Part shown: piece by piece, positions 3,495 through 41,525 of the stretch | Layout of the letters: every line of letters begins with the position of its first letter | Position numbering within the stretch: the first letter of the stretch is position 1 | Assembly: GCF_021278025.1 (NCBI RefSeq) | Contig: NZ_JAIBHJ010000033.1 | Coordinates: 1-41,525 of the forward strand | Origin: Motilimonas sp. E26 | Lineage (GTDB): Bacteria > Pseudomonadota > Gammaproteobacteria > Enterobacterales > CBDFNC01 | DNA: 41,525 nt | Direction of reading: 5' to 3' | Notes under the pieces: generated by a model | Databases searched by the model: none | Told to the model about the DNA's origin: nothing | The model's input: the letters and a program-made list of their open reading frames with translations, nothing else | Position numbers and translations under genes: made by a program

Positions 3495-4112
3495 CAGGAC
3501 ACCCATCTCTTTTTGCACTAACTCATGTCCTGAGCCATAGTTTACAAACCACTTAGTGAGCAGGATGTGGCCATGACTTTATCTCGCAAGCAGTTGATTT
3601 GTCCTGAATCAACGACTTACTACCATGTCACCAGCCGCTGCGTGCGTCGCGCTTTTTTATGTGGCATCGACCACTACACCCAAAAAAGTTACGAACACCG
3701 CAAGCCTTGGCTGTTGGATAAAATCAAATAACTCACCAGTGTTTTTACCATAGATATCTGTGCTTACGCCATTATGAGTAATCATTACCATCTGATTTTG
3801 CACATTAATTTAGCCGATAACCGTGATTTATCAGATGTTGACGTCGTGGAGCGCTGGCAACAATTGTTTGCTACGCCCATGTTGGTGGGTGATTGGCGAG
3901 TGGGTAAACAACAAAGCAATGCTCAACAAGAAGTGGTTGCTGAGTTGATTGCAAAATGGCGTAAACGCCTTAAGGACATCAGCTGGTTTATGCGTTGTTT
4001 AAATGAAGATATTGCCCGCAGAGCCAACCAAGAAGATAAATGCAAGGGCCATTTTTGGAAAGGACGGTTTAAAAGCCAAGCAGCGTGTAACCGACTGAGT
4101 GGATTAGGATAA
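3495..4112 (+). pseudogene. RAYT/IS200-like transposase (element copy 3), nonsense codon and internal deletion
   Basis: ATG 3573 starts MTLSRKQLICPESTTYYHVT, with SRCVRRAFLCG typical of the Y1_Tnp N-terminus, but an in-frame TAA at 3729-3731 stops it after 52 codons. The same frame resumes as ICAYAIMSNHYHLILHINL, which contains the family's HYH catalytic histidines, and runs to 4112. The region after KSQA is deleted exactly as in copy 2. Without the TAA it would be 179 residues, shorter than usual for the family. Upstream, CAGGACA at 3495-3501 and TGTCCTG at 3526-3532 could pair and may belong to the left end of the element. Inactive gene; family certain. Confidence 0.85.
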
Positions 4113-36518: not shown

Positions 36519-37637
36519 ATGGCCAAACTAGACCTTATTGATATTCGTAAAACCTATCCGAAATCGGATTTAGAAACCCTGAAAGGCATTAATATCAGCA
36601 TTGAGCCGGGTGAATTTCTGATTTTGGTCGGCCCTTCCGGCTGCGGTAAATCTACCTTAATGAACACCATTGCGGGCTTGGAAGACATCAGCTCGGGCGA
36701 AATTCGTATTAACGACGTCGATGTATCTGGCCTTGCACCAAAAGATCGCGACATCGCCATGGTGTTTCAATCCTACGCCTTGTACCCCAACATGACGGTG
36801 CGGGAAAACATGGCCTTTGGCTTAAAAATTCGCAAAACCCCCACCACTGAAATTGATGCTGAAATCAAACGGGTATCAGAATTATTACAAATCGATCACC
36901 TGCTCGACCGCAAACCCAGCCAGCTTTCGGGTGGTCAGCAGCAACGTGTCGCCATGGGCCGCGCCCTCGCGCGGCGACCAAAACTGTATTTGTTTGACGA
37001 GCCGTTAAGTAATTTAGATGCCAAACTACGGGTAGAAATGCGCACCGAAGTGAAAAAACTCCACCAACGCCTTGGCACGACCATAGTGTATGTTACCCAC
37101 GACCAAATTGAAGCCATGACCTTGGCCGATCGCATCGCGGTAATGAAAGCCGGGGAAGTGCAGCAACTCGGCAGCCCCTATGAAATTTATAACCACCCCA
37201 CCAATATGTTTGTCGCCGGCTTTATGGGCTCACCATCAATGAACTTTGTGCCCATCACCGTACTAGAAAATAGCGACGGCCATGCCTGCACCGAGCTAAC
37301 AGGCAGCGATGGCAAAGCGCAGCTGTTGGCCTTGCCTGATAAGCTAAAAACATACGTGGGTAAAAAACTGATGCTAGGCCTGCGCCCTGAACATATTAGT
37401 CAGCAGCTATCCCACCATAGCGAAACGGATTTGATCTCAGCGGCGCGCTTTAATATTGAAATTTTAGAGCCCACCGGCCCCGAGACCATTGCGCAAATCA
37501 CCATTAACGATCATGCCGTGCATTGTCGCCTTGCCCCCGACCTCAGCATTACTGCAGGTCAAGATCTTGATTTAATGATAGATGTCAGTAAAGCCAGTTT
37601 TTTTGACCCCGACAGCGAAAGGAATATTTTGCTTTAG
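36519..37637 (+). CDS. Sugar ABC transporter ATP-binding protein (UgpC/MalK type)
   Basis: The product has 372 residues. Walker A is GPSGCGKST (about 38-46), the Q-loop MVFQSYALYPNMTV (about 80-93), signature LSGGQQQRVAMGRAL (about 134-148), Walker B LYLFDEPLSNLDAKL (about 154-168) and the H-loop YVTHDQIEAMTLA. The C-terminal 130 residues form the OB-fold regulatory domain of MalK/UgpC-type ATPases (LRPEHI is visible). It powers the importer formed by the two permeases. It is the last gene of the operon; no good terminator is seen, and an insertion-sequence remnant begins soon after. Confidence 0.93.
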   Translation: MAKLDLIDIRKTYPKSDLETLKGINISIEPGEFLILVGPSGCGKSTLMNTIAGLEDISSGEIRINDVDVSGLAPKDRDIAMVFQSYALYPNMTVRENMAFGLKIRKTPTTEIDAEIKRVSELLQIDHLLDRKPSQLSGGQQQRVAMGRALARRPKLYLFDEPLSNLDAKLRVEMRTEVKKLHQRLGTTIVYVTHDQIEAMTLADRIAVMKAGEVQQLGSPYEIYNHPTNMFVAGFMGSPSMNFVPITVLENSDGHACTELTGSDGKAQLLALPDKLKTYVGKKLMLGLRPEHISQQLSHHSETDLISAARFNIEILEPTGPETIAQITINDHAVHCRLAPDLSITAGQDLDLMIDVSKASFFDPDSERNILL

Positions 37638-38133
37638 CTGAGTGTATGGGAGATGTATGGACTCCTCCCCACGCGGGAGATACGGTATAAATAAAGTGGC
37701 GAAAAATTACTTTACCAAGGGAGTCCATGCATGAATAAACTAACTTATTCGCCATCGACATTGCAAAGAATGTTTTTCAAGTTACACACCTAGCTGACAA
37801 AAAGTGAAAAGCAACAAGGCCATGAGCCGCAACAAATTAAAAGCGCTGTTGGCAGAATCTGGGCCTTCAAGTGTTGCAATGGAATCATGTGGTAGCGCCA
37901 GCTATTGGACGCTTGGCTCAGTCTTATGGTCACAACGTTACTTTACAGAGTCCTCGTTTTGTAAAAGCTTTTCGCGTTGGTCAAAAAACAAATGCTAATC
38001 ATGCCTTAGCCATCGCCACTGCAATGGATGCGCCGAACGTGTGTCCCTGCACCCAACAGTTTTGAGCTCTAATAGCACTTAACAAGATAGAACTAAATAG
38101 GACTGTAAAACACAATTATTTTGCTAAAAAACA
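37638..38133. other. Junction between the ABC operon and the second Rhs region
   Basis: No intact gene is present. ATGGACTCC at 37657-37665 and GGAGTCCAT at 37720-37728 are perfect inverted repeats flanking a 54-bp sequence just ahead of an IS110-type transposase remnant (37731-38060). They may belong to the left end of that element. After 38060 there is A/T-rich sequence up to the start of the 571-bp repeat at 38100. Confidence 0.6.
37731..38060 (+). pseudogene. IS110-family transposase remnant (N-terminal part)
   Basis: The three frames together give FAIDIAKNVFQV, which is the IS110 DEDD start with its first catalytic Asp, then VKSNKAMSRNKLKALLAESG and PSSVAMESCGSASYWT, then RLAQSYGHNVTLQ, SPRFVKAFRVGQKTNAN and LAIATAMDAPNVCP. 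At least three frame changes are needed (near 37750, 37805 and 37915), and the C-terminal half is missing. RVGQKTNANHALA has His where IS110 proteins have the next catalytic Asp (NDA). It is a decayed end of an insertion sequence and cannot be active. Confidence 0.8.
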
Positions 38134-38670
38134 CTATAACATTCGAATTTTTTCTATCACATCATCGGGAATCATTTTTGTTATAAAAAGGTCATCCAGC
38201 GCTATCTCATATGGATATTTTTTAACTTCTTCTTCTGTTGCCTCTGATGATTCTCCATAAAGCGAGGTTTTTTTCTCTAACCCCTTTGAACCCCATAAAA
38301 AATAAACATCTTCATCTCCCGAGTGAAGGTAGTCTTCTTGTCTACCAATTATACGCCAGTCTCCTATTATTTTTCTATCAAATAAAGAGTAGGAGTCTAA
38401 AATCAAGGGAGGCATTAACCTAGAACAATCTAACTCAAAATCATTTTTTAACTCAGGAGTTGTAGAAAAAAAATCAAATATTTCAGCAGAGTGCCCTAGG
38501 CTCATTTTCGTCATGATACGACCAAAACCATACACTTTTCTATTGAGATTTAACGCGAATGTTTCCTCTTTTAATTCAAAACAAAATATATCACCGGGCT
38601 TAATATATCTAAGCATTGTTCTCGGTTTTTTATCCCAGCCCCATATCTTTAATTTCATACCTTACATCCT
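38100..38670. repeat. 571-bp direct repeat, left copy
   Basis: It is the same length as 39760-40330 with about 13 substitutions and no indels by eye. It contains a complete 174-codon gene. Its right end abuts the left inverted repeat of the IS30-type element, while the other copy begins at the element's opposite end. Confidence 0.93.
38134..38658 (-). CDS. Probable Rhs immunity protein, duplicate copy (orphan)
   Basis: The product has 174 residues, is soluble and begins MKLKIWGWDKKPRTMLRYIK. It is the twin of the protein encoded at 39794-40318, differing at three residues by eye, all in the last 30 (Glu for Lys, Leu for Trp, Val for Ala). It lacks a toxin gene upstream; the IS30-type element stands there instead, so any expression must come from inside the element or from its edge. 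No family is recognised. The charge pattern and the link of its twin to a toxin fragment suggest immunity. Confidence 0.7.
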   Translation of the reverse strand: MKLKIWGWDKKPRTMLRYIKPGDIFCFELKEETFALNLNRKVYGFGRIMTKMSLGHSAEIFDFFSTTPELKNDFELDCSRLMPPLILDSYSLFDRKIIGDWRIIGRQEDYLHSGDEDVYFLWGSKGLEKKTSLYGESSEATEEEVKKYPYEIALDDLFITKMIPDDVIEKIRML

Positions 38671-39759
38671 CCCGAATTCAACTGCGAAGTGCGACATTCT
38701 CCAATATCAAGCAGCAAAGGCCATTGCTTCAAATACAACGGCTGGCTGCTTGAAGCCTAAACACTTTCTTGGTCGATAATTTATCCGCGATAAAGCGAAC
38801 TCGATATCGATGTCCGTCACTGTTGTTAAGTCGGTTCCTTTCTTTACATACTGCCTTAAAAGCCCGTTCGCATTCTCGTTAGCGCCACGCTCCCAAGAAC
38901 TATAAGGGTGAGCAAAGTACACATCAGCTTCTAACGCTTTTGCGATGGTTTCATGATCTGCAAACTCTCGCCCGTTACCTGCAGTGATAGTATGGACATG
39001 TTTTTTATGAGGCATGAGTAGCTCAATGGTTGCTTTGGTTACATCATCTGCTGACTTAGATGGCACTTTCTTTACCAAGTAAAACCGGGTTTTACGCTCT
39101 AAAATCGTCACCATAGCCCCGGTGCCATGCTTGCCTAACACCGTGTTGATTTCCCAGTCACCAAACCGCTCTTTACTGTCAACGATACTCGGCCTGTCAT
39201 CAATCGAAACAGCATTCTTTATTGCTGGCGCTTTCTCTTTTTTACCACGACGATACCGCTTGTGGCCTTGCCTCAAATGACGATATAACTTACCGCCCAA
39301 GCGCTTGTCCTGAGCGACAAAACGGTAAATCCACTCATGACTAACGGCTGCACCTACATTCGTTAATACATTGGCAATCTGCTCTGGACTCCAATCTGCT
39401 TCTAAAAGAAGACGGATAAAATCAACGCGTTCTTGTGGTATACGGTATTTACGTGCGCAAGTACGCTTTTTGATAGATAACGCGTGAGCCTCACTTGGAC
39501 AATAGCGATTATTGTTGCATCCTCGTTTATACTCTCGATACACCGTAGAGCGATGGCACTGAACAGCTTTAGCTATTTCAGAAACCGAAACACCCCGTTC
39601 CAAAAGAGTAGAAATCTGGTATCTTCTGCCTTCGGTCAACTGCTGATAATTCATGGTAGTACTGCTTGTTTCTTTGGCGAGAAGAGCGTACCACTTTCAG
39701 CAGTTGGCTTCCTCTTCTACGCCTTTCCATGAATGTCGCACTTATTATCTGAAATCGGG
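38671..39759. mobile_element. IS30-family insertion sequence, 1089 bp
   Basis: The ends are imperfect inverted repeats: CCCGAATTCAACTGC then GAAGTGCGACATTC on the left (38671-38699), against CCCGATTTCA then AAGTGCGACATTC on the right (read from 39759). One transposase gene fills the interior. No ordinary 2-3 bp target duplication is present; instead the element sits exactly between two 571-bp direct repeats. Confidence 0.92.
38707..39654 (-). CDS. IS30-family transposase with a substituted catalytic Asp
   Basis: The product has 315 residues. The N-terminal HTH is YQQLTEGRRYQISTLLERGV then EIAKAVQCHRSTVYREYKRG. The DDE domain shows the first Asp in FGDWEINTVLG and the Glu in GANENANGLLRQYVKKGTDL. 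At the second acidic site the family has T-x-DNGxEF, but here the sequence reads TITAGNGREFADH: the codon at 38977-38979 is GGT (Gly, residue 226) where GAT or GAC (Asp) is expected. The frame is otherwise full length. It is probably catalytically dead, unless the base is a sequence error. Confidence 0.9.
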   Translation of the reverse strand: MNYQQLTEGRRYQISTLLERGVSVSEIAKAVQCHRSTVYREYKRGCNNNRYCPSEAHALSIKKRTCARKYRIPQERVDFIRLLLEADWSPEQIANVLTNVGAAVSHEWIYRFVAQDKRLGGKLYRHLRQGHKRYRRGKKEKAPAIKNAVSIDDRPSIVDSKERFGDWEINTVLGKHGTGAMVTILERKTRFYLVKKVPSKSADDVTKATIELLMPHKKHVHTITAGNGREFADHETIAKALEADVYFAHPYSSWERGANENANGLLRQYVKKGTDLTTVTDIDIEFALSRINYRPRKCLGFKQPAVVFEAMAFAA

Positions 39760-40330
39760 GGACTGTAAAACACAATTATTTTGCTGAAAAACATTATAAC
39801 ATTCGAATTTTTTCTATCGCATCATCGGGAATCATTTTTGTTATAAAGAGGTCATCCCACGCTATCTTATATGGATATTTTTTAACTTCTTCTTCTGTTG
39901 CCTCTGATGATTCTCCATAAAGCGAGGTTTTTTTCTCTAACCCCTTTGAACCCCATAGAAAATAAACATCTTCATCTCCCGAATGAAGGTAGTCTTCTTG
40001 TCTACCAATTATACGCCAGTCTCCTATTATTTTTCTGTCAAATAAAGAATAGGAGTCTAAAATCAAGGGAGGCATTAACCTAGAACAATCTAACTCAAAA
40101 TCATTTTTTAACTCAGGAGTTGTAGAAAAAAAATCAAATATTTCAGCAGAGTGCCCTAGGCTCATTTTCGTCATGATACGACCAAAACCATACACTTTTC
40201 TATTGAGATTTAACGCGAATGTTTCTTCTTTTAATTCAAAACAAAATATATCACCGGGCTTAATATATCTAAGCATTGTTCTCGGCTTTTTATCCCAGCC
40301 CCATATCTTTAATTTCATACCTTACATCCT
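39760..40330. repeat. 571-bp direct repeat, right copy
   Basis: This is the partner of 38100-38670. Its left end abuts the IS30-type element, and its right end lies at the stop codon of the toxin fragment ending at 40331. Of about 13 differences between the copies, seven lie in the first 120 bp. Confidence 0.93.
39794..40318 (-). CDS. Probable Rhs immunity protein, copy next to its toxin fragment
   Basis: The product has 174 residues, is soluble, with FCFELKEETFALNLNRKVYG near residue 30 and DVYFLWGSKGLEKKTSLYGE near 120. No family is recognised. It starts 12 bp after the stop of a toxin C-terminal fragment (40331-40501) on the same strand, with AGGATGTAAGGT as RBS; this is the standard toxin-then-immunity order. 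The toxin is reduced to its last 56 codons, so the immunity gene has outlived it. A second copy lies beyond the IS30-type element. Confidence 0.72.
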   Translation of the reverse strand: MKLKIWGWDKKPRTMLRYIKPGDIFCFELKEETFALNLNRKVYGFGRIMTKMSLGHSAEIFDFFSTTPELKNDFELDCSRLMPPLILDSYSLFDRKIIGDWRIIGRQEDYLHSGDEDVYFLWGSKGLEKKTSLYGESSEATEEEVKKYPYKIAWDDLFITKMIPDDAIEKIRML

Positions 40331-40501
40331 TTATTTACCGTAGATAGTGTTCTCATTTTTTTCATTATAAGCATTTTCAAAATATGCTTGTCGTTCTCTG
40401 TCTCGAGTTGTATTGCCATGGTCAAAAAAGTTCACTTTATTCCCTCTATTTATTTCCGACATTGGGTCCCCTTTAACTTCTATTTTTATCCCGAGCTCAG
40501 G
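40331..40501 (-). pseudogene. 3' fragment of a second Rhs toxin tip (56 codons)
   Basis: This is too short to stand out as a gene. Directly after the stop of the gene at 40502-40972, and in the same frame, the minus strand reads PELGIKIEVKGDPMSEINRG, then NKVNFFDHGNTTRDRERQAY, then FENAYNEKNENTIYGK and a stop. The charged, compact style and the immunity gene 12 bp downstream mark it as the end of a polymorphic toxin. There is no start codon and no Rhs core in front, so the cassette was truncated when it was placed here. The toxin family is not recognised. Confidence 0.65.
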
Positions 40502-40972
40502 TTAATTAAAATTACTTTTCCAACAATACAGTTCTATCTCGTATTCTAAACGGATTAAAGATAAAATCACATTATGATTTTCTTCAAAGATTATAGGGTA
40601 TTCTCGTAAACCTTCTATTTCATCAAATTTTCTTATGAACTCATTTACACAGCACTTGACCCTAAAACTCTCCCCCCCATAAATCACTGTAAAAACAATA
40701 TTTTTATAACCTTTAAACAAAATCAACTTCTCTTTCATCATTTTTCTTGCCTGAGAAAAAACAAAATTTTCATCAGCAACCTTTCCACCTCTTCCATCAT
40801 AAAAATTAAAACGAGTAACTACCCCACCGTTTGAATTGTGAGCAGATTTACAAAACTCCAAATCAAAAGAGTCCTCATCCCCATAACTTATTTTAACAAC
40901 ATTTAAAAAAAAATATTTATCAAGCAATTTTTTCTTATAATTATTTATCTTTAATTCTTTTATTTTTCTCAT
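40502..40972 (-). CDS. Probable immunity protein for the Rhs toxin at the right edge
   Basis: The product has 156 residues, is soluble, very A/T-rich in codon use, and begins MRKIKELKINNYKKKLLDKY. No family is recognised. Its ATG overlaps, as ATGA, the TGA that would end the upstream toxin if one lost base near 41044 were restored, a coupling typical of toxin/immunity pairs. The A/T-rich codons contrast with the core genes of the window and suggest recent transfer. Confidence 0.72.
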   Translation of the reverse strand: MRKIKELKINNYKKKLLDKYFFLNVVKISYGDEDSFDLEFCKSAHNSNGGVVTRFNFYDGRGGKVADENFVFSQARKMMKEKLILFKGYKNIVFTVIYGGESFRVKCCVNEFIRKFDEIEGLREYPIIFEENHNVILSLIRLEYEIELYCWKSNFN

Positions 40973-41042
40973 TTTAATTTACATTCTTTTCCTTGAGTTT
41001 TAAAGCCTACAAAATCCTCTGGAATATGACCTGGATGCTGGT

Positions 41043-41525
41043 TTATTTACCTGGTTCTGTTGGGTCAACACGTCCATCCATAGAGGTTGCTGTATGGAGA
41101 TGCTTTCCACGTCCAAACTTATCTTCATCATGCATCACTATAAACTTCCCTTTATGTTCGCCGTCAAATGCCCATACTGTACGATTCTCATACTGACTAT
41201 CCCAGACTCTTATTGGTGTTGGAGTATTTACATTCTTAGGGATATTTAAGTTTCTCTTTGCTTGTCTAAAGGATTCTTTGAAAGTAATTTCATCTGTGTT
41301 CAACCCAAACGGATCAACCCAATCCATCGGGTTATGCACATAACCCTGCGGCCTTAATCCACCGGCAAGACCGATAGGATCGGGACTAATATATTGGCAC
41401 AGCTCGGGGCAATAATAACGATAACGGTTGTAGTATAAGCCTGACTCGCTATCAAATATTTGCCCTTGATAACGTAAATCACAATTGATGCTGCCAGCTT
41501 TTGGGCTATCACTCCAGTAGTTGAT
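41043..41525 (-). pseudogene. Rhs protein C-terminus with frameshifted toxin tip (continues off the window)
   Basis: The frame is open from the window edge; 160 residues are visible. The core end has INYWSDSPKAGSINCDLRYQ, FDSESGLYYNRYRYYCPELC, DPIGLAGG and WVDPFGL, the pre-tip cleavage region. It is a different core type from the left array. The tip has FKESFRQAKRNLNIPKNV, then IRVWDSQYENRTVWAFDGE, KFIVMHDEDKFGRGKHLH and DPTEPGK, then TAA at 41043-41045. One lost base near there hides the natural end: read in the next frame, 41043 to 40969 gives NQHPGHIPEDFVGFKTQGKE then CKLK and TGA. The His-rich GKHLH and QHPGH suggest a metal-dependent nuclease tip, which is inference. Confidence 0.82.

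Follow-up and report, generated by a model that had tools for sequence, protein, structure and literature searches.

The window analysed here is a whole contig of 41,525 nucleotides from the draft genome of Motilimonas sp. E26, in which two diverged copies of an Imm26 family immunity gene (imm) lie on either side of one IS30-family insertion sequence (IS). Comparison of the sequences suggests that a single crossover inside the IS could have joined two alleles carrying the element on opposite sides of imm, a reading to which we give a probability of about one half, marginally on the favourable side. We only infer the parental alleles and the crossover event, because neither of the parental arrangements turned up in any strain: a genome with the IS at the left site (L) only, at the right site (R) only, or with imm and no IS was not found among three other genomes of the genus and 394 genomes of the order.

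Two copies of imm around one IS

The direct repeats occupy 38100-38670 (copy A) and 39760-40330 (copy B), both on the minus strand. They are 571 bp each, align without gaps and differ by 13 substitutions (97.7% identity); a 571-bp repeat at 98% identity is not a product of chance. Between them sits a full-length IS30-family element of 1089 bp (38671-39759, minus strand) that touches both repeats to the base, with the repeat homology ending on the inner side at its two inverted-repeat ends. At the outer edges homology also ends at the base, between AAATA and GGACTG left of copy A and between ATCCT and TTATTTACC right of copy B. Arrival of the copies with longer flanking homology was rejected on account of these ends, and a composite transposon was rejected because one IS lies between two gene copies and is single in the genome. 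The initial annotation had described 571-bp direct repeats with exact boundaries, 13 differences and a whole immunity gene per copy around an element of IS30 type, and all of this was confirmed. Scans of 37600-41525 gave no excess of promoters (6 against a shuffle mean of 10.7) or of terminators (2 against 2.8).

Within each repeat the minus strand carries a complete ORF of 174 aa, at 38134-38658 in copy A and at 39794-40318 in copy B. Both match Pfam Imm26 (PF15428, E 2.5e-8) with 34.6 bits against a gathering score of 23.3 and differ as proteins at residues 151, 154 and 167; for copy B no NCBIfam model scores above its cut-off. The DNA of imm was not found in the three other genus genomes, and the Imm26 protein is encoded by only 2 of the 394 sampled order genomes, its own included. 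Scanning genome contigs for relatives gave seven loci with 44-52% identity, one in Gilliamella and six in Lachnospiraceae or Acetatifactor MAGs. Plasmids yielded two distant relatives, and none were found in viral contigs.

The IS has imperfect terminal inverted repeats of 29 bp, identical at 23 of 29 positions, and encodes a 315-aa transposase (38707-39654, minus strand) that matches the IS30 transposase model NF033563 (transpos_IS30) with 305 bits against a cut-off of 80. Its closest known copy, 99% identical, lies in the sister-species genome G001 with a 2-bp target duplication. At two conserved motifs the window transposase reads DWEIN and TAGNG, compared to DWEID in 20/20 and TADNG in 20/20 other copies (L092 being the twentieth for TADNG), while the glutamate motif is retained. 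As such, the element is a mutated copy of the IS30 family in which, by alignment and motif survey, two conserved aspartates have changed (D170N and D226G); these columns are presumably DDE catalytic residues.

The draft genome (84 contigs) contains one IS copy and two imm copies, and a search of it for additional repeat or IS copies found none. A mixed sample with both alleles, joined by the assembler through the IS, would give a product that looks alike, and a draft of 84 contigs leaves room for such joins. However, there is neither a second IS match nor a third imm match elsewhere in the assembly, and with completeness at 100 and contamination at 0.72 we regard a chimera of this kind as highly improbable. 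Among nine other copies of the IS clade, with flanks compared over 6 kb per side for five, 5.8 and 6.1 kb for one and 1.5 kb for three, none was bordered at both IS ends by a direct repeat.

Age of the copies and of the IS

Copies A and B differ with dS 0.077 and dN 0.0084 (omega 0.11). Between the sister species G000 and G001, dS is 0.044 for malF, 0.092 for malK, 0.093 for malG and 0.205 for malE, so the divergence of the copies appears allele-like and close to the sister-species level for malF, malG and malK. The transposase, compared between the same two genomes, has a dS of 0.0096. The synonymous divergence of the copies is thus about eight-fold that of the IS against its closest known copy (8/102 vs 2/210 sites, Fisher p 0.0026; p 0.0066 when 7/102 is taken for the copies, the actual count being 7.5). 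Because of this difference in dS, divergence of the copies probably predates the arrival of the IS. The divergence is uneven, as 11 of the 13 differences fall in the first 290 bp of the repeat and the other half (2/281) is no more divergent than the IS (11/1089). A split test for a conversion tract, or mosaic, gave p 0.073, and with all sites taken together copies versus IS gave p 0.051; if the divergent 290-bp half were a later gene-conversion tract, the dating argument would be weaker.

These dates bear on a possible one-step origin in which the IS would have produced the duplication, either by inserting into a break during duplication or through transposase activity. Such an event would share the anatomy of the Dup-IS481-Dup mutant of Pseudomonas fluorescens SBW25, which also has no target duplication (PMC11708052), and the divergence that remains would fit if the 290-bp half were such a conversion tract. 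The initial annotation had offered IS-driven duplication of a flanking segment as one route, but it is a poor fit to copies with eight times the synonymous divergence of the IS (dS 0.077 vs 0.0096, Fisher p 0.0026 or 0.0066), and it leaves the target-half look of both outer edges, described below, without explanation. We therefore hold a one-step origin to be very unlikely.

Target-like sequence at the edges of the repeats

No target duplication is present here, the IS being flanked by CT on the left and GG on the right. Of 18 distinct sites of related IS copies that were compared, 13 show a target duplication of 2-3 bp, and the remaining five have neither a duplication nor any Dup-IS-Dup repeat (0/5), so the lack of a duplication is not a unique sign of the crossover model. 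The count left out elements that lacked an end or had an internal interruption, and the plasmid records L080 and L087, whose flanks are the same as those of another record, were dropped; of 175 matching plasmid records, 15 supplied sites, each of them one of the 30 matches listed. For seven interrupted elements a single locus holds both ends: in L022/L064 the flanking bases match (TTT), and in L024, L025, L033, L041, L062 and L065 the flanking bases do not match. A giant target-site duplication was rejected, as 571 bp with 13 differences stands against a clade norm of 2-3 bp; the earlier remark that this is no ordinary target-site duplication was borne out by that norm and by the CT and GG flanks.

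The crossover model predicts that the missing halves of the IS targets lie across the outer repeat edges. A target arm matrix built from the 13 duplication-bearing sites placed outer arm R in the top 0.15-1.5% of locus k-mers and outer arm L in the top 3.6-6.9%, with a joint Fisher p of 0.0006-0.0064 over six settings. Similarly, among 1010 positions the restored site R ranked in the top 1.1% and the restored site L in the top 7.2%. By the arm matrix, the arms now adjoining the IS were unremarkable as targets (12-74%). In leave-one-out trials the matrix recovered 7/13 sites in the top 3% and ranked 5/13 below the top 12%. The target halves were thus found where predicted, more strongly on the R side; site L taken alone is only suggestive as an IS target. 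On the left, 65 bp of unassigned sequence at 38035-38099 end in AACTAAATA, which the arm score allows to be read as the lost left arm of site L.

The same evidence bears on an older tandem pair of imm, into whose exact junction the IS later inserted with a duplication that was never made or has since been lost. This would agree with copies older than the IS, which is the part of the tandem-junction route in the initial annotation that gains from the dating, and with the five related sites without duplication. It requires both the exact strike and the missing 2-bp duplication, and neither these nor the unremarkable arms adjoining the IS fit it as well as they fit a crossover. Furthermore, a tandem repeat of 571 bp is expected to collapse or homogenise, and by eye the outer edges have no microhomology in common of the kind that might remain from a tandem duplication. 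In its favour, the joined flanks TTACATCCT/GGACTGTAA form an imperfect palindrome, and IS30 reportedly inserts at hot-spot sequences (PMC9333248). On balance an insertion into a tandem pair appears unlikely. Another route would start from IS-imm-IS, with unequal crossover giving IS-imm-IS-imm-IS and precise loss of both outer IS copies. Exact boundaries, flanks that do not match and outer arms resembling targets would be expected from this route too, but two precise losses would be needed and the gene copies would be identical at first, at odds with a dS of 0.077 where the IS shows 0.0096; we consider it distinctly unlikely.

A crossover between two insertions in different alleles would account for the exact boundaries, the lack of a duplication, the allele-level divergence and the target halves past the repeat edges, and CT would not match GG because the flanking base pairs come from different insertions. 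As evidence against its own view, the initial annotation had named independent arrival of the copies with homology extending past the boundaries. The first half agrees with the crossover model, in which the copies would come from separate lineages; the second was not seen, as homology ends at the base.

A probable orphan immunity gene, its proposed history and known systems

To the right of copy B lies a 43-aa ORF (40331-40462, minus strand) that is probably the remaining C-terminal end of an Rhs GIY-YIG (Tox-URI-type) toxin since displaced; its stop codon sits right at the repeat edge and IS target site R. The ORF resembles the end of a Bernardetia GIY-YIG Rhs protein encoded directly upstream of Imm26 (62% over 29 aa, E 5e-3). 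It has no Pfam match, and tblastn in eight loci with Imm26 relatives gave no match at E 1. By eye, a tail resembling the ORF was seen upstream of Imm26 in Gilliamella, and only there among the upstream stretches of six of the seven imm-relative loci, the seventh (L010) being left out for too little upstream DNA. Only this ORF, which has no catalytic part of a GIY-YIG toxin, precedes copy B, and with a displaced Rhs toxin reduced to a stub in front of it, imm looks like an orphan immunity gene. Further right are a 156-aa ORF (40502-40972, minus strand), which has no Pfam or NCBIfam match and is a putative immunity gene for the Rhs toxin now in place on the strength of its position only, and the 3' end of an Rhs gene (41043-41525, minus strand), which is truncated by the contig end and comprises the core end and the tip of the toxin; its translation contains NPMDWVDPFGL, which we take to be the Rhs core end motif. 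The left neighbour of copy A is a frameshifted 5' remnant of an IS110-family element (37647-38034, plus strand), 88% identical to a longer copy in G001 with two ORFs matching DEDD_Tnp_IS110 and Transposase_20. Homology to the malK locus of G001 stops at 37658. Imm26 is paired with Tox-URI1 nuclease toxins in a published survey (PMC3482391).

Under the crossover model, the Imm26 gene would probably have been left behind after displacement of its GIY-YIG Rhs toxin, with diverged imm alleles present in different lineages. In one lineage the IS30-type element would have inserted just downstream of imm, at site L (AACTAAATA-GG-ACTGTAAAAC), and in another the same IS, in the same orientation, just upstream of it, at site R (TTACATC-CT-TTATTTACC). 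DNA of one lineage could then have met the chromosome of the other, and homologous recombination inside the IS would have produced imm(A)-IS-imm(B), with its left part taken from the R-type allele and its right part from the L-type one. Subsequent loss of two conserved aspartates from the transposase would probably have frozen the arrangement apart from recombination.

The closest parallel in anatomy is SBW25-Dup-IS in P. fluorescens, where a newly inserted IS481 sits in the middle of a 59,943-bp duplication and has no target duplication, and for which a one-step IS-linked origin has been proposed (PMC11708052). Both have two direct copies, one IS between them, exact joints and no target duplication. 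SBW25-Dup-IS arose in the laboratory, spans about 60 kb and has fresh copies, whereas the present case is natural, 571 bp long and diverged, with an IS30-family element; in addition, its target-like outer edges point to recombination between two insertions rather than to a single IS-linked duplication. The same source lists recombination between two IS copies as one cause of missing target duplications (PMC11708052). In that process, as in our model, the flanks stem from separate insertions of one IS and do not match, but here the insertions would lie in different alleles on either side of imm and the product is a doubled gene.

In T6SS clusters of Vibrio cholerae, immunity gene arrays are attributed to sequential effector displacement (PMC5361080). 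As in the present model, immunity genes are retained once their effector is displaced, and several alleles in one genome are ascribed to different strains, not to duplication. Homologous and homology-facilitated recombination are proposed there; the passages concerned mention one transposon insertion disrupting an array and no IS as a gene-doubling crossover point (PMC5361080). In homogeneous polyimmunity loci, too, a single immunity family is represented by several adjacent copies, but the relevant part of that survey places Imm26 in heterogeneous loci and does not describe a near-identical pair around an IS (PMC3482391). A literature search by titles and abstract starts, which is a weak screen, returned none naming an immunity gene that is present twice around an IS.

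A recent paper describes a duplication that has an IS at its midpoint and lacks a target duplication, and terms this not readily explained (PMC11708052). The present locus is a natural case of the same anatomy, in which divergence and target-site evidence favour recombination between two IS insertions in different alleles. If this is true, comparing copy age with IS age and looking for target halves at the outer edges would be a simple test that separates IS-caused duplications from allele-joining crossovers. It would also provide one specific way in which pairs of same-type immunity genes can form; in Vibrio arrays these have been ascribed to alleles from different strains (PMC5361080). More tentatively, IS copies inserted in different lineages on either side of one immunity gene might act as portable crossover points that bring two diverged alleles together in one chromosome. 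This would be a general route by which bacteria build arrays of same-type immunity genes; it would widen protection against variants of one toxin and leave a signature: an exact Dup-IS-Dup arrangement that lacks a target duplication, gene copies that predate the IS, and target halves at the outer edges. If true, this signature could be searched for in all genomes.

Structure of the duplicated immunity locus

Two direct repeats of 571 bp, copy A (38100-38670) and copy B (39760-40330), enclose an IS30-family element of 1089 bp (38671-39759), whose ends are 29-bp imperfect inverted repeats (23/29 identical) and whose transposase gene lies on the minus strand. Sequence comparison of the repeats is ungapped and shows 13 differences over 571 bp, and the initial annotation's description of the repeats and the element between them proved correct to the base. 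It had also placed a whole immunity gene in each repeat, and indeed one full 174-aa gene (imm, minus strand) in each gives an Imm26 match above the Pfam cut-off, the two proteins differing at residues 151, 154 and 167, all close to the C terminus. The structure has clear boundaries and was read correctly, and an assembly chimera is a highly improbable source of it. Since both copies share the same start region, beginning 12 bp upstream of the ATG (AGGATGTAAGGTATG, minus strand), both may be translated; a promoter scan found no promoter excess.

Both flanks were compared for 20 further full-length elements of this IS clade, five from genomes and 15 from plasmids (15 of 175 matching records). 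After two copies were dropped because their site was common to another copy, 18 distinct sites were left, with a 2-3 bp target duplication at 13 and none at five. The element studied here has CT as its left flank and GG as its right, with no target duplication. Given this clade norm and these unmatched flanks, the 571-bp repeats did not originate from the staggered cut of one insertion and are ruled out as a target duplication, in agreement with the earlier view that they are not of the usual 2-3 bp kind.

Other copies showed further irregularities. On two Shewanella plasmids (L086, 1-1209, and L087), a second ATCGGG stands just beyond the IS30 right end, which looks like a repeat of its last six bases; there is no target duplication. 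A 185-bp MITE-like element in genome G218 (L062, 271-455) consists of both IS30-type ends and a middle piece, and lone right-end copies of about 50 bp occur in two genomes (L014, 1501-1547; L070, 206-259; L071, 249-297), CTTTTT adjoining two of the three.

Target halves and the origin of the arrangement

The best explanation, to which we assign a probability of roughly one half (0.52), is a crossover through the IS that joined two alleles. One allele would have carried the IS immediately downstream of imm (site L, duplication GG) and the other immediately upstream (site R, duplication CT), in the same orientation. Incoming DNA would then have recombined by one crossover inside the IS and another in the shared flank. 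The resulting locus would hold both alleles, with exact joints and with flanks that do not match. We infer these parental alleles and the crossover, as the most likely course, from the observed anatomy, flanks, divergence and target halves. The collections searched yielded no strain with a single IS insertion at L or R.

Joining of two insertions at the gene edges in this way requires the base pairs immediately beyond each repeat to be the remaining half of each target. An arm matrix was built from the 13 duplication-bearing sites (26 arms; weak TTA-NN-TAA-like consensus); it is weak, with 7/13 training sites in the top 3% and 5/13 outside the top 12% in leave-one-out. Over six settings, the outer arm at R (CT-TTATTTACC) ranked in the top 0.15-1.5% of locus k-mers and that at L (CC-TATTTAGTT on the reverse strand) among the top 3.6-6.9%, with a combined p of 0.0006-0.0064. 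As complete sites among 1010 positions, R fell in the top 1.1% and L in the top 7.2%; the arms touching the IS at present rank at 12-74%. Insertion of the IS into the one ready-made junction of an old tandem pair does not account for target halves at the outer edge of each repeat, and is rather unlikely. Amplification of an IS-imm-IS unit, with the outer IS copies then lost, is improbable. The draft genome (4.6 Mb, 84 contigs) contains no further match to the gene or to the IS.

Age of the copies and state of the transposase

Between the two imm copies, 7.5 of 102 synonymous sites are substituted (dS 0.077, dN 0.0084, omega 0.11), and the transposase differs from its copy in the sister-species genome G001 at 2 of 210 (dS 0.0096, omega 1.15). 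By comparison, dS values between the two species are 0.044 (malF), 0.092 (malK), 0.093 (malG) and 0.205 (malE). The IS therefore passed between them recently and, unless it was refreshed by conversion, should have been at this site for no longer than it has been separate from the G001 copy. The two imm copies resemble alleles from a pair of sister lineages. The copies were dated by substitution pattern, as the initial annotation had proposed: at synonymous sites the copies are more diverged than the IS (p 0.0026 with 8/102, 0.0066 with 7/102), but over all sites the contrast is not quite significant (13/571 vs 11/1089, p 0.051). Its source is the first 290 bp of the unit, with 11 of the 13 changes, and the second half (2/281) is no different from the IS. 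A split-rate test across the unit gave p 0.073, so there may have been a later conversion tract, which would weaken the age argument.

Substitutions D170N and D226G in the transposase gene (38707-39654) remove two of three inferred catalytic residues, presumably both aspartates of the DDE triad. The affected motifs read DWEIN and TAGNG here and DWEID and TADNG in G001, the latter forms each being retained in 20/20 other copies (L092 among them). Among four compared copies (this one, L011, L019 and L020), six coding changes are private to this one and all six alter residues. The element is probably dead at present, as the two lost acidic residues leave it without expected movement by its own enzyme, and the assembly has no other copy. 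For such a small set of changes, hits on two of three active-site residues would seem to exceed chance, and the losses may reflect selection for an immobile copy.

Probable lost toxin, neighbourhood and wider meaning

To the left of the locus lies what we take, from translations, to be a malEFGK-like transport operon, followed by a broken IS110-family remnant (37647-38034); a longer copy in G001 is split into two ORFs, both matching IS110 transposase models. Homology of G001 to the malK end breaks off at 37658, so the remaining island is absent from that place in G001. On the right, along the minus strand, the 3' end of an Rhs gene truncated at the contig edge is followed by a 156-aa ORF (40502-40972), a 43-aa ORF, Imm26 B, the IS and Imm26 A. 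The 156-aa ORF and the present Rhs toxin tip (41043-41339) have no Pfam or NCBIfam match and could form an undescribed toxin-immunity pair. Two further Rhs C-terminal pieces at the opposite contig end (1418-2077 and 5112-6014) have near-identical core ends and different tips, so Rhs tips lie at both contig ends. ORFs 22-507 and 3774-4112 both end in a similar AACNxLSGxG tail and resemble fragments of REP-associated (RAYT-type) transposases.

The 43-aa ORF resembles the tail of a plasmid-encoded Rhs (DUF6531) protein of Bernardetia (62% over 29 aa, E 5e-3), which has a GIY-YIG domain at its end (23.2 bits, cut-off 22.6) and is followed 8 bp later by a gene annotated as Imm26. In Gilliamella, by eye, a similar tail precedes an Imm26 relative, and a GIY-YIG-like stretch before that gene scores 20.8, just below the 22.6 cut-off. 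Two results speak against such an origin: the 43-aa ORF has no Pfam match, and tblastn with it at E 1 found nothing in eight loci carrying Imm26 relatives, Gilliamella included. A polymorphic-toxin survey pairs Imm26 with Tox-URI1 nuclease toxins (PMC3482391). Going by these neighbours and this pairing, a remnant of a displaced GIY-YIG Rhs toxin most likely precedes copy B, and by position both copies are most likely orphan immunity genes. The Gilliamella toxin end (L005, 7629-7989) is spread over more than one frame, so that immunity gene may be an orphan too.

Ngan et al. describe a 59,943-bp duplication in P. fluorescens SBW25 that has a new IS481 at its centre and lacks a target duplication, and they propose IS481 insertion into a break (PMC11708052). 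A one-step IS-linked duplication of that kind is quite improbable here. A Vibrio array paper attributes multiple alleles of one immunity type per genome to different strains, not to duplication (PMC5361080). The imm-IS-imm arrangement joins both lines, IS-centred duplication without target duplication and multi-strain immunity alleles; a literature search, mostly of titles and abstract starts, returned no mention of an immunity gene present in two copies around an IS. The allele-joining crossover would represent a known type of IS recombination in variant form, with a same-type immunity pair as its consequence.
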